64,000 nucleotides of DNA from Aequorivita viscosa (GTDB lineage Bacteria > Bacteroidota > Bacteroidia > Flavobacteriales > Flavobacteriaceae): the NCBI RefSeq assembly GCF_900106795.1, contig NZ_FNNS01000002.1, positions 1 through 64,000 on the forward strand, given 5' to 3'. Under the pieces are notes generated by a model that worked only from the letters and a program-made list of their open reading frames with translations, had not been told where the DNA came from and ran no database searches. This document shows, in pieces, positions 3,001-21,824 of the stretch. The number at the start of each line of letters is the position of its first letter. Within the stretch, counting starts at the first letter, position 1. A program made the translations under genes and the position numbers.

Positions 3001-4100
3001 CTAGCCACTGCTAAAGCTGTTGGTACTAGGCAAGCAGGTGCAGCCGTTACATTAATATTAAGATCTACCGTAACCCCGTAACTTCCGTTATAACAAGGAT
3101 TTGGTGTAGATTGACCCATGTCGGCCGTTCCAATTCGCATTCGGTGTACCCCTAGCGGCGCATCAGCTGGCATCGTAAATGAAGCATTCAATGTTGTTGG
3201 TCTTACATCTGTAGACTCTCCAGAAAAGACCAATTCAGATGCTTCAAAAACCAAATTGTTATTTAAATCTATCCACACATGGGTGTTGTACGTATAACCA
3301 GTATCAAAAGTAACTTGAAGGTTACTTGAAGTTCCTGCTGCTAAATCAGCAGTTCCATCATTTCTAAAATCAAGATAAGTAACATCACTCCCTGTATAGT
3401 TAAGGCTTCCCACTTGCACATTTGTAATCCCATTTCGATCATTACTATCAGGCACAGAAGTGCAATATCCTGTAAAAACATTTAAAGGCCCAGCCCAAGC
3501 ACTTTGTTCATCACTACAATCTGTTTGTACGTAGACGTCATAATTTGAATCCTCTGTTAATCCTAAAATTTGATAGGATGTGGTTGCAGAAGTACCGGTA
3601 CCTACATCACCATCGCCTGGTGTATACCCAGGGAGCCCCCAAGAGATATTCCAAGAAGGATAGGGACCAGTTGACCAAGAAATAGTTGCAGTAGTTGACG
3701 ATAAGCTAGCCACCGTAAGCCCGGAAGGAGCAAAACAAGTTGGGCACGTTACAACAATAGGTACAGTTATATCATTTAAATCATCCCCACTGCCAACAAG
3801 TAGGTTATTTGCATCGTAAACCTCAAAGGAGTTTTCATATGCGTAAGATCCTGTTTCATTGTAAATAGCTGTAATCTCGTCGCCATCATTTACTGCCAAA
3901 GAAAATGATACTTCATCCCCAGGAGGATCATATAAAGTAATATTGTCAAGCACCACTACTCCATTTACAAGAACATCAAGCGTATTGCCATTCCAGCCGT
4001 CACCCCAAGAGTCTATCAGCTTGATCGAATAATTACATTGGGCTGTCGCCTGCCAGCCTATGGTTGCTGTAAACAGCATTAAAAATAAAGTTTTTCTCAT
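1..4100 (-). CDS. T9SS-exported multidomain Fn3/GEVED surface protein, 3' end cut by window edge
   Basis: The frame stays open from an ATG at 4098-4100 to the window start, about 1366 codons, so the last ~55 residues of the sorting domain are missing. In order: a signal peptide ending ...WQATA-Q; a domain with a DSWGDGWNG motif; an Fn3 domain; a GEVED-like domain (WIDLNNN core; the usual GEVED tail is replaced by YGVTVDLNINV); another Fn3; a jelly-roll (choice-of-anchor J-like) region; a third Fn3; a PPC-like region (TVWFSFVAP, GNTYYIQVDG); then the C-terminal module shared with the three other giants (V-x-R-Y, NPYQSAV, LQPGQGAQ, HDSFGI). It ends in LFPNPLNGDTFYI, the start of a type A T9SS sorting domain. 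Export across the outer membrane and anchoring or release at the cell surface is known for the family; the ligand is unknown. Several Fn3 units contain a repeated ISWG-x-PGY motif. Confidence 0.9.
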   Translation of the reverse strand, partial: MRKTLFLMLFTATIGWQATAQCNYSIKLIDSWGDGWNGNTLDVLVNGVVVLDNITLYDPPGDEVSFSLAVNDGDEITAIYNETGSYAYENSFEVYDANNLLVGSGDDLNDITVPIVVTCPTCFAPSGLTVASLSSTTATISWSTGPYPSWNISWGLPGYTPGDGDVGTGTSATTSYQILGLTEDSNYDVYVQTDCSDEQSAWAGPLNVFTGYCTSVPDSNDRNGITNVQVGSLNYTGSDVTYLDFRNDGTADLAAGTSSNLQVTFDTGYTYNTHVWIDLNNNLVFEASELVFSGESTDVRPTTLNASFTMPADAPLGVHRMRIGTADMGQSTPNPCYNGSYGVTVDLNINVTAAPACLVPTALAVASVTDNAADVTWTAGDSETDWNISWGVFGYTPGTNDLGTAVVTTTPAYQITGLDDNTQYQFYVQADCGAEQSDWASPVSFTTACTPFGSFSENFDTTNVDEVPACWSTLKENSNNSFASIAVDLNPNAISSPNDFQFYNSGDENAEFYLVSPELTNLSNADHQLRFSYKGTGGVSLIIGTMSDPSNALTFSEVQAVTTTTTYDEYIVLFDQSYTDPYIVFKVVYSQIFKTVNLDDVSWELIPSCPKPTSLTATSITTTTADFSWTTGSSETAWNISWGTPGYSPSIDDIGTHTATTTSYQITGLDASTEYEFYVQASCDIADVSDWVGPLAFTTQSVNDNLCDALPLTIGATSAGDAYTNVGATVQPNEPNGTCWSGTSNPQTVWFSFVAPSSGNVTATTDIAGGTLNDTHIAIYEAPADCADLLTLGMEVGCDEDGGEIVGNGWTSVATMTGLTPGNTYYIQVDGYGSKSGTFGLEVHDDGYDGFVYEAGVWTPSDPSVDAGPTDDIFVVDGVTNFTSAMEVNNITVMSGATLNVEAVLTINGDITNDGNLVFVSTATGNGELAAVPGTSSITGNVTVERYMKAKRSYRMVSSAVTTSTSVHDNWQEGATSNTNNPNPGFGTHITGSTTDQMNGFDGTITGNPSMFTVNVGTQMFEAVTNTDVNTLTAGEPYLLFVRGDRSVDLTNDLAAGETVLRATGSLVTGTQTQNYATSNAGDVLMFGNPYQSAVDVNAVFAASTNLNTGYYYVYDSELGAHGAYVTVNLPGGSNTSGSDANQFLQPGQGAQAAALAAGATSVVFNEASKAPGNFTPTNRPVSANDMLTVQLFTTENFNNGGPVHDSFGIIFAEGNDNGLTPADAVKPMNFYENLGRDLNGTYLSIEQRALPQAAEVYPMYSIGYTKSDYTLKVIVEGLEANFLYLDDHFTGTSMLLEAGENSYSFRVDPNDALSIATDRFSIRTAQRLGVDDNSLLVGIRLFPNPLNGDTFYINAPKLNGEQLSV

Positions 4101-4241
4101 AATCCTTTCATTTTGGTTAATACAATTATTTTTTATCGCTATCGGGATTTTAAAACTTTTAAAAATCCAAGAGCACCTTACAGACATTTTTATAACATTT
4201 AGCATATCGGATATCACTATAAAACTATCTTAAAGACTTCA

Positions 4242-20797: not shown

Positions 20798-21442
20798 TTA
20801 TAGGTGTGGGTTCTCCACTGGAATATAGCAACTTGTCGCCGCGAATTCCCCCGTAAACGTTATAAAGGTAGCCCAACAATAAACTGTTACGCCCACCGCT
20901 TTATCGGGGAGGGGGAGTTGTACGCTTGTGTCTTGGCGCTGGGCGATATTCTCAAAGAAGTAAAACTCACTACTGCTTGGCGCATAGAGCACAATCGTGA
21001 GCAAATCGTCTGGATTGGCAAAACTTTGCGCACAATTATCAGTCCATTCCACCGTAAGCTCGTTATTGGGTTCCACAACTGCCGATGCACCTTCAACCCC
21101 TCTTAGATGCCCTTTACTGATGCACACCTTGGGATAGATTATCTGCAAGTTGTTACCTTCTACTCGAATTGCTTCCCGTAAATGATAGGAAAGCGCTAGG
21201 TCGAACGGAGCTTTGGCACCTTCCATTTTCCCAAAACGTTTGGCAAGAAATGGTTTAATGGGATTGAGAAACCCCATAGCCGCACTAAACTTAGCACGTT
21301 GCAGCACTTGGGCTGGCGACGGCTTTTTACTTGATTTTTCTGGTGCCATCCGCAACACTGCCATTCCACGCCAAGTAACACCCACAACCCGCCCCACTCG
21401 GCCCGAAAATGTACCAAAGATGTTGTCTGCCTGTATTGCCAT
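20798..21442 (-). CDS. DUF6266 family protein (214 aa)
   Basis: An intact frame from ATG at 21440-21442. The N-terminus (MAIQADNIFGTFSGRVGRVV, then GVTWRGMAVLR) and the following basic stretch (KKPSPAQVLQRAKFSAAMGFL) resemble the DUF6266 family of Bacteroidota. The C-terminal half alternates short beta-type segments and ends ...FAATSCYIPVENPHL. No signal peptide or membrane segment is visible. The family function is not known; members I recall are stand-alone genes that often lie in variable regions. Here it lies in the degenerate zone between two giant surface proteins, with the TTCGAG array 112-210 bases upstream of its start. Confidence 0.75.
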   Translation of the reverse strand: MAIQADNIFGTFSGRVGRVVGVTWRGMAVLRMAPEKSSKKPSPAQVLQRAKFSAAMGFLNPIKPFLAKRFGKMEGAKAPFDLALSYHLREAIRVEGNNLQIIYPKVCISKGHLRGVEGASAVVEPNNELTVEWTDNCAQSFANPDDLLTIVLYAPSSSEFYFFENIAQRQDTSVQLPLPDKAVGVTVYCWATFITFTGEFAATSCYIPVENPHL

Positions 21443-21553
21443 AACACTCTAAGCTTTAGAAGTTATATTGGATTATGCAATTTAACAAGTAACCCTCTCA
21501 AAAACAAGGACTCACCGCTTTTATTGCGGAGATTACTCTATGCTTGCTCTTTA

Positions 21554-21652
21554 TTTGTTCGAGGGTTCTTCGAGGATTGTTCGAGAAATATTCGTAAAAA
21601 CGCGGATTTTTCGAAGGTTTCTCGAAGGAATCTCGAACCTATCTCGAACAAA
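21554..21652. repeat. Symmetric array of eight TTCGAG-type hexamers at 11-bp spacing
   Basis: TTCGAG occurs at 21558, 21569 and 21580, with a TTCG half at 21591. Its complement occurs as TTCGAA at 21610 and CTCGAA at 21621, 21632 and 21643. All steps within each arm are exactly 11 bp and the two arms are mirror images about position 21603. The 5-base spacers between hexamers are not conserved, but the hexamers are. The outer flank TTTG/CAAA extends the symmetry by 4 bp. One helical turn per unit suggests one face of the helix is read by a protein, or a cruciform. Confidence 0.85.
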
Positions 21653-21824
21653 GTTAGAGGGAAAAACGTGCAAAAGATGAGGGAATGGAGAGGGGTATGT
21701 GGGAGAATGGTGGTGGATTTTTGTGAATACTAACCCTCTATCTTGGCGAAAACAAAACGATTTTGAGAGTGCTAGACTAAATTGTTCCGAAACCACTCCC
21801 TCTAAAACTTAATTCGAATAAAAC

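Follow-up and report, generated by a model that had tools for sequence, protein, structure and literature searches.

Eight TTCGAG-type hexamers at 11-bp steps, arranged as two mirrored arms of four, lie upstream of a DUF6266 gene in the 64,000-nucleotide stretch of Aequorivita viscosa DNA analysed here (the window), and direct repeats of the same step recur upstream of DUF6266 genes in related bacteria. With moderate confidence, the comparison of these loci favours a multi-site DUF6266 operator whose sites an oligomerising protein would read on the DNA duplex. The window copy is of a reduced type: it has the mirrored 11-bp array and a candidate promoter, and has neither the 10-bp array nor the HTH_17 gene (HTH gene) of other loci. 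As judged by comparing sequences, its 4+4 mirror layout is one form of a broader repeat family, linked to promoters, in many Bacteroidota.

Results

Array, gene and candidate promoter in the window

Arm 1 (21558..21596, + strand) consisted of TTCGAG hexamers starting at 21558, 21569 and 21580 and of TTCGTA at 21591; it is the arm nearer to the DUF6266 start and is of the CTCGAA type when read on the - strand. Arm 2 (21610..21648, - strand) mirrored it, with TTCGAA at 21610 and CTCGAA at 21621, 21632 and 21643. Within each arm the repeats were direct and followed one another at 11-bp steps, roughly a turn of the helix, and the array was centred on 21603. The loop between the arms (21597..21609, no strand; AAAACGCGGATTT) had an A-run, a G-rich middle and a T-run, as did the genome's other four copies. 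The array agreed with the ideal 4+4 layout in 45 of 48 letters, compared with 25 for the runner-up place in the 64-kb window and a maximum of 27 in 200 dinucleotide shuffles; the mirror-symmetric, 11-bp-phased array of the original prediction is real. In the hairpin register, 23 of 24 hexamer positions were complementary vs. 4 of 15 spacer positions, the latter about the chance level, as expected if the hexamers and not a continuous stem are constrained. The claim that hexamers had been kept and spacers had diverged held for this copy, but not for three other copies in this genome (L021, L022 and L023), in which the spacers were largely TCTTG and some still paired.

The gene behind the array encodes a DUF6266 protein of 214 aa (20798..21442, - strand; Pfam PF19781, E 2e-31) and its reading frame is intact. 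The position of the array upstream of the DUF6266 start had been given correctly and was key to the interpretation. A candidate -33 box (TTG, 21505..21507, - strand, 65 bp before the ATG) and a candidate -7 box (TAAATTG, 21478..21484, - strand) of a DUF6266 promoter were read from the sequence; their spacing of 23 bp was that of 12 of 22 relatives, and a second pair, TTG-23-TAACTTC, was likewise present at the locus. TTTG/TAnnTTTG is the promoter type of Bacteroidota. The 10-bp array was absent from the window (lag-10 score 27; arrays were called at scores of at least 33), the HTH gene was found there neither in the ORF list nor by tblastn, and an Rfam search returned two tRNAs only.

The stretch 21540-21665 had a fold z-score of -7.0 as DNA and also as RNA. 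This would fit a cruciform or an RNA hairpin in the interval from the giant gene to DUF6266, for example one that insulates transcription or forms a leader. However, the window spacers were unpaired, and the candidate promoter sits between the array and DUF6266, so that the DUF6266 transcript need not include the array.

DUF6266 was considered as a transposase-like protein and rejected as such: the C-terminal part of its AlphaFold model (pLDDT 86.7) resembled FN3 sandwiches (best E 4.7e-4) and not a nuclease. The best E of the model against a viral library was 2.0e-4, DUF6266 had no sequence relatives in the PDB (best E 0.96), and the four proteins tested received no PHROG assignment. A phage or plasmid origin was also dropped, with one weak phage match, one relative among 70 candidate viral-contig stretches and no plasmid match for the one query protein used.

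The 11-bp array upstream of DUF6266 genes in relatives

A scan of named genomes gave 243 relatives, of which the best 80 were used; these were collapsed by upstream similarity to 63 non-redundant loci. With score thresholds and lag windows chosen after the data had been viewed, at least two CGAA at 11-bp steps occurred in 41 of 63 DUF6266 upstreams vs. 0 of 375 upstreams of other ORFs at the same loci, and at least two TTCG of the mirror arm in 11 of 63 vs. 3 of 375. Before collapsing, a TTCG/CGAA pair at an 11-bp step within 700 bp upstream was present at 44 of 80 DUF6266 loci vs. 16 of 1076 control windows. The difference between 41 direct and 11 mirrored arrays identifies the direct, gene-proximal arm as the conserved part; mirror symmetry, which had been taken as the defining trait, was not supported as such, as those 11 loci were the only ones with at least two exact mirror-arm units.

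The repeated 11-bp pattern was sought in related genomes, as the original prediction had proposed, and the array was not unique: the strict three-unit form was present in 5 of 299 family genomes (4 of 236 genera; reversed control, 1 genome). At the loci of G040 and G262, DUF6266 was placed and oriented relative to the array as in the window. A PF19781 search of seven genomes gave 10 genes in six of them, most of which were preceded by arrays or parts of arrays.

The 11-bp consensus was C[TC]CGAA[CG]AAAA (120 units, 41 loci; CGAA was fixed by the search). The 11-bp motif co-varied with DUF6266 (r = 0.59; n = 41), more with the C-terminal part of the protein than with the N-terminal part. In the subset of loci with the HTH gene, the partial correlations of the 11-bp motif with the HTH protein and with DUF6266 were both non-significant, and the 11-bp array itself showed no link with that gene (present at 27 of 37 HTH loci vs. 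14 of 26 others; p = 0.18). Both an HTH protein encoded in trans and DUF6266 itself are possible readers of the 11-bp array.

Strong hairpins (z < -3) were found at 12 of 40 loci with an 11-bp array and in none of 40 control windows. The median fold z was -3.05 at loci without the HTH gene vs. -1.2 at loci with it, and the window, with a strong hairpin and no HTH gene, matched the better hairpins of the former. Compensatory hexamer types across species (TTCGAG, TTCGGG and TTCGTA with their complements) also agreed with pairing. However, 30 of 63 loci had direct repeats with fewer than two exact mirror-arm units. As strong hairpins and mirror arms were each confined to a minority of loci, the cruciform that had been suggested applies to a subset at most and is not a general feature; as an explanation of the array, a cruciform or RNA hairpin is quite improbable.

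In L095 and L096, whose DUF6266 proteins are the two most typical, the place of the array was taken by a short 11-bp CAAGTCCG repeat close to the start codon. These two loci and L160, L164, L166-L169, L174, L176, L177 and L183 had, near the DUF6266 start codon, short repeats in direct orientation that were of the AAGTCCGTACC type and in many cases 11-bp-stepped. Upstream clustering also revealed nearly identical DUF6266 upstreams at 13 loci (L168, L170-L173, L175, L176, L178-L181, L183 and L184) that span Mesonia, Tenacibaculum, Winogradskyella, Mangrovimonas, Kordia and other genera, which suggests a recent horizontal spread of their DUF6266 gene.

The 10-bp array and its register

In many relatives the 11-bp array was followed by a second array, with 2 to 18 GTC-containing units every 10 bp. 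At least four GTC at 10-bp steps were present in 22 of 63 DUF6266 upstreams, and both arrays together in 20 of 63, vs. 0 of 375 other-ORF upstreams in either case. In G254, from the window's genus, DUF6266 was accompanied by a 10-bp array of the TGCAATGG type and by the HTH gene.

Register was calculated from 22 loci with both arrays. The distance from the last CGAA to the first GTC was 32 bp at 12 of them and was 2 modulo 10 at 17, the exceptions being L107, L120, L123, L131 and L165. The last GTC lay 67-71 bp before the ATG at 11 of the 22 loci. At 12 of the 22, a promoter-like TTG-23-TAnnTT followed the last GTC, 9 bp on in 10 cases and 19 bp on in 2. An array at a promoter in fixed register was seen in relatives with the 10-bp array; the window has the candidate promoter only.

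The neighbouring HTH_17 gene

The largest shared neighbour family of the 63 DUF6266 genes was a small protein found at 40 loci (runner-up, 7 loci, containing DUF6266-like proteins), usually encoded convergently just downstream of DUF6266. Pfam assigned HTH_17 to four of four of these proteins tested. Removal by hand of L155, L168 and L182 (misplaced or a different protein) left 37 HTH loci; the gene was on the strand opposite to DUF6266 at 36 of them, and on the same strand and further away in L120.

The 10-bp array was present at 29 of 37 loci with the HTH gene vs. 3 of 26 without it (Fisher p = 1.3e-7), and, among loci with the 11-bp array, at 24 of 27 vs. 3 of 14 (p = 3e-5). HTH loci with a sub-threshold 10-bp score were L125, L139, L144, L150 and the Aequorivita loci L105, L115, L122 and L124, in which the 10-bp array was undetectable; L157, L163 and L165 had the array without the gene. 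At the 29 loci with both, distances between 10-bp motifs were correlated with distances between HTH proteins (r = 0.56; 0 of 5000 permutations as high). The correlation with HTH given DUF6266 distance was 0.33 (p = 0.0002), and that with DUF6266 given HTH was 0.09 (p = 0.17); distances on a common phylogeny are non-independent, an effect that the partial test lessens and does not abolish.

A profile of 36 of the 37 HTH proteins (L150 was excluded) matched in the PDB BldC 6AMA (E 4.2e-5), BldC 6AMK (E 5.8e-4) and RacA (0.007). The AlphaFold model of the HTH protein (pLDDT 84.5) was a winged helix; its best Foldseek matches were BldC (E 0.046) and RdfS (E 0.072), weak values with no match at 0.001. 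Both 6AMA and 6AMK are described as BldC-DNA complexes (PMC5859096). The earlier proposal that the hexamers are protein sites, read one per turn, fits the behaviour of the sequences, both in the recurrence of CGAA at 11-bp steps and in the way the second, 10-bp array tracks a BldC/RdfS-related HTH gene.

The HTH evidence applies to the 10-bp array, which is absent from the window, as the 11-bp array was unlinked to the HTH gene. The joint absence of the gene and the 10-bp array from the window is what their link predicts, in one case. Because the HTH gene accompanies 37 of 63 relatives but is absent from the window, membership in the BldC/excisionase type of operator is not claimed for the window copy. 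The same two absences could be those of a decayed relic without present function, its palindrome persisting by inertia after the HTH gene and the 10-bp array were lost, and the degenerate copy L024 and the solitary copy in L233, which precedes a broken DUF6266 start, point the same way. Against this, the window array retained 45 of 48 letters though its spacers had drifted to chance pairing, and its DUF6266 frame is intact; a relic is highly improbable.

Dispersed copies

In the 3.54-Mb genome of A. viscosa, the three-unit pattern, with up to 3 mismatches allowed, had 10 forward and 14 reverse places (reversed control, 3 and 1); the looser pattern used across genomes had no match in it. The places resolved into five inverted arrays, namely those of the window, L021, L022, L023 and L024, the last of which is degenerate, and into two others that were dropped as unrelated. 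Of these two, L025 (C56:11082) is a simple direct repeat in which three TTCGAGTAGCA units stand in tandem at about 4083-4110 with no mirrored counterpart, and L026 falls within an ABC-type gene. The window copy and L024 lie in paralogous DNA (69% over 650 bp, gene end included), and the likeness among L021, L022 and L023 was restricted to the array.

Across the 299 genomes, the looser pattern gave 48 places in 22 genomes, 43 of them distinct (reversed control, 5 matches). Twelve of the 43 lay before DUF6266, all on the strand of the gene and 138-251 bp away, and 31 had no DUF6266 within 500 bp; 26 of these 31 were fetched, and those of G020, G070, G084, G162 and G224, which may be chance matches, were left out. 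DUF6266 was present in 15 of 22 genomes with the looser pattern vs. 43 of 277 others, yet G110 and G228 had arrays and no DUF6266 match. L218, inside a gene, is probably a chance match. Among 20 solitary copies examined, 16 had at least three GTC, and 10 of the 16 kept the modulo-10 register. In L233, a solitary element was followed from about 3056 by the first part of a broken DUF6266 reading frame. Remnants of DUF6266 as a general origin of solitary copies were rejected, since tblastn gave a remnant at 1 of 35 loci without full DUF6266 (L233), a set made up of L233, L021-L024 and further solitary or candidate loci.

L229 encodes, 1592-840 bp ahead of the element, a protein whose start is of the GIIKLKGTIGDISFYK type and which, by eye, seems remotely related to the N-terminal part of DUF6266. 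G110 also had a dispersed TTCGAGTGATTTTCGAA palindrome, distinct from the arrays, of which at least nine copies look exact among the matches listed.

The number of places without DUF6266, together with the five copies in the window's genome, would be accounted for by a mobile palindrome of the REP/MITE type, a hairpin copied by a transposase in trans (e.g., RAYT), with the DUF6266 position being one kept or carried insertion. Four within-genome pairs in other species had 169-241 bp in common and little else, and these boundaries suggest a unit; the pair L077/L078, however, shared 633 bp, exceeding the element, and two attempts to find an empty site met rearranged loci and no clean one. A RAYT-type gene (L023:4715-5299) starts about 220 bp from the L023 array, and one survey reports that atypical dispersed structures, some of which may be relatives of the array, flank a RAYT class of Bacteroidetes (PMC6006769). 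Ownership of the array by a RAYT/REP system, which L023 had prompted, was rejected, as other RAYT-type loci showed no regular linkage: of the 12 distinct Y1/RAYT-type loci inspected, which came from four genomes, one had an array within about 1.5 kb, and it was in the window's genome; by tblastn the L023 type of RAYT was at two places (L023 and L242 = L144) among 138 element or DUF6266 loci; and G024, G040 and G262 had arrays and no match to the L023 RAYT. The foot of the window hairpin, read from the sequence, had no GT[AG]G tetranucleotide, and five copies in 3.54 Mb is a low number where many dispersed copies would be expected. The uniform orientation of all 12 DUF6266-linked places and the recurrence of the linkage across genera are not what random insertion would give, and a mobile palindrome is rather unlikely as the explanation.

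In a further RAYT-type gene of the window's genome, in L043 (C32:10267), the motifs were separated by a long insertion of (SPSSS)-like repeats; a similar insertion is described for one RAYT class (PMC6006769).

Discussion

The preferred reading remains that of an operator. The sequences show the array, its recurrence before DUF6266, the registers, and a 10-bp array that co-occurs and co-varies with the HTH gene; binding, filament formation, transcription control and the identity of the 11-bp reader are inferred. The window array would be the 11-bp part of a conserved cis-acting DUF6266 operator, whose full module would comprise 11-bp direct repeats, a CCCC run, a variable number of GTC repeats and the promoter, in fixed register before DUF6266. 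The HTH_17 protein of the neighbouring gene would line the 10-bp repeats with one protomer at each helical turn, arranged head-to-tail as in BldC and the excisionases, and this coating would set DUF6266 transcription. The window copy would be a reduced form in which the HTH gene and the 10-bp array are gone and the 11-bp array has two mirrored arms; its hexamers would be read on duplex DNA by a protein that oligomerises and is encoded at another place, either an HTH paralogue or DUF6266 itself.

A more far-reaching extension is unlikely, if conceivable: a two-array nucleoprotein module with a BldC/Xis-like filament whose length on the 10-bp array can be tuned and whose ends are anchored by the DUF6266 promoter and by a complex on the 11-bp array (mirrored in the window), in which the same factors on solitary copies would form a dispersed binding network and not single operators.

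DUF6266, an unstudied family, gains a candidate regulator and a control region. The loci offer a natural series of operators, from 2 to 18 GTC units, with fixed promoter phase and co-varying recognition proteins, and filament-type regulation by BldC/Xis-like proteins becomes testable against array length and register.

Comparison with known systems

A literature search made largely without subscription journals gave no paper naming DUF6266; it gave REP/RAYT surveys and excisionase papers, none of which described the two-array DUF6266 module. The original statement that no described element has such a layout held insofar as this search found none, and needs qualifying in that BldC and excisionase operators are close analogues.

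REP/REPIN-RAYT systems are also dispersed extragenic palindromes, some beside RAYT (PMC3733652, PMC6006769). Unlike them, the array had no GT[AG]G foot in the window, a low copy number and no regular RAYT linkage, with regular DUF6266 linkage instead.

In the excisionase (RDF) arrays of lambda Xis, phage 186 Apl and RdfS, head-to-tail protomers occupy tandem repeats one DNA turn apart, and for Apl and RdfS a dual role in transcription is reported (PMC7498355, PMC11963761). As far as tested, the repeats here differ in preceding a promoter and a gene of unknown function and not an attachment site, and no recurrent integrase family was seen among the 14 largest shared neighbour families.

Head-to-tail binding to direct repeats about one turn apart is common to BldC, RdfS and Apl (PMC5859096, PMC11963761, PMC7498355). 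The BldC repeats are of 9 bp (PMC5859096), compared with 11 bp and 10 bp here, with up to 18 GTC units; here, moreover, two arrays stand in register, copies are dispersed, and the window has no HTH gene. Like the DUF6266 upstreams with their candidate promoters, the operators of the MerR-like BldC of Streptomyces carry direct repeats in tandem at a promoter, spaced by about a turn of the helix (PMC5859096), and BldC is a small winged-helix protein whose 6AMA and 6AMK entries are the nearest solved sequences and folds to the HTH_17 proteins of the DUF6266 loci.
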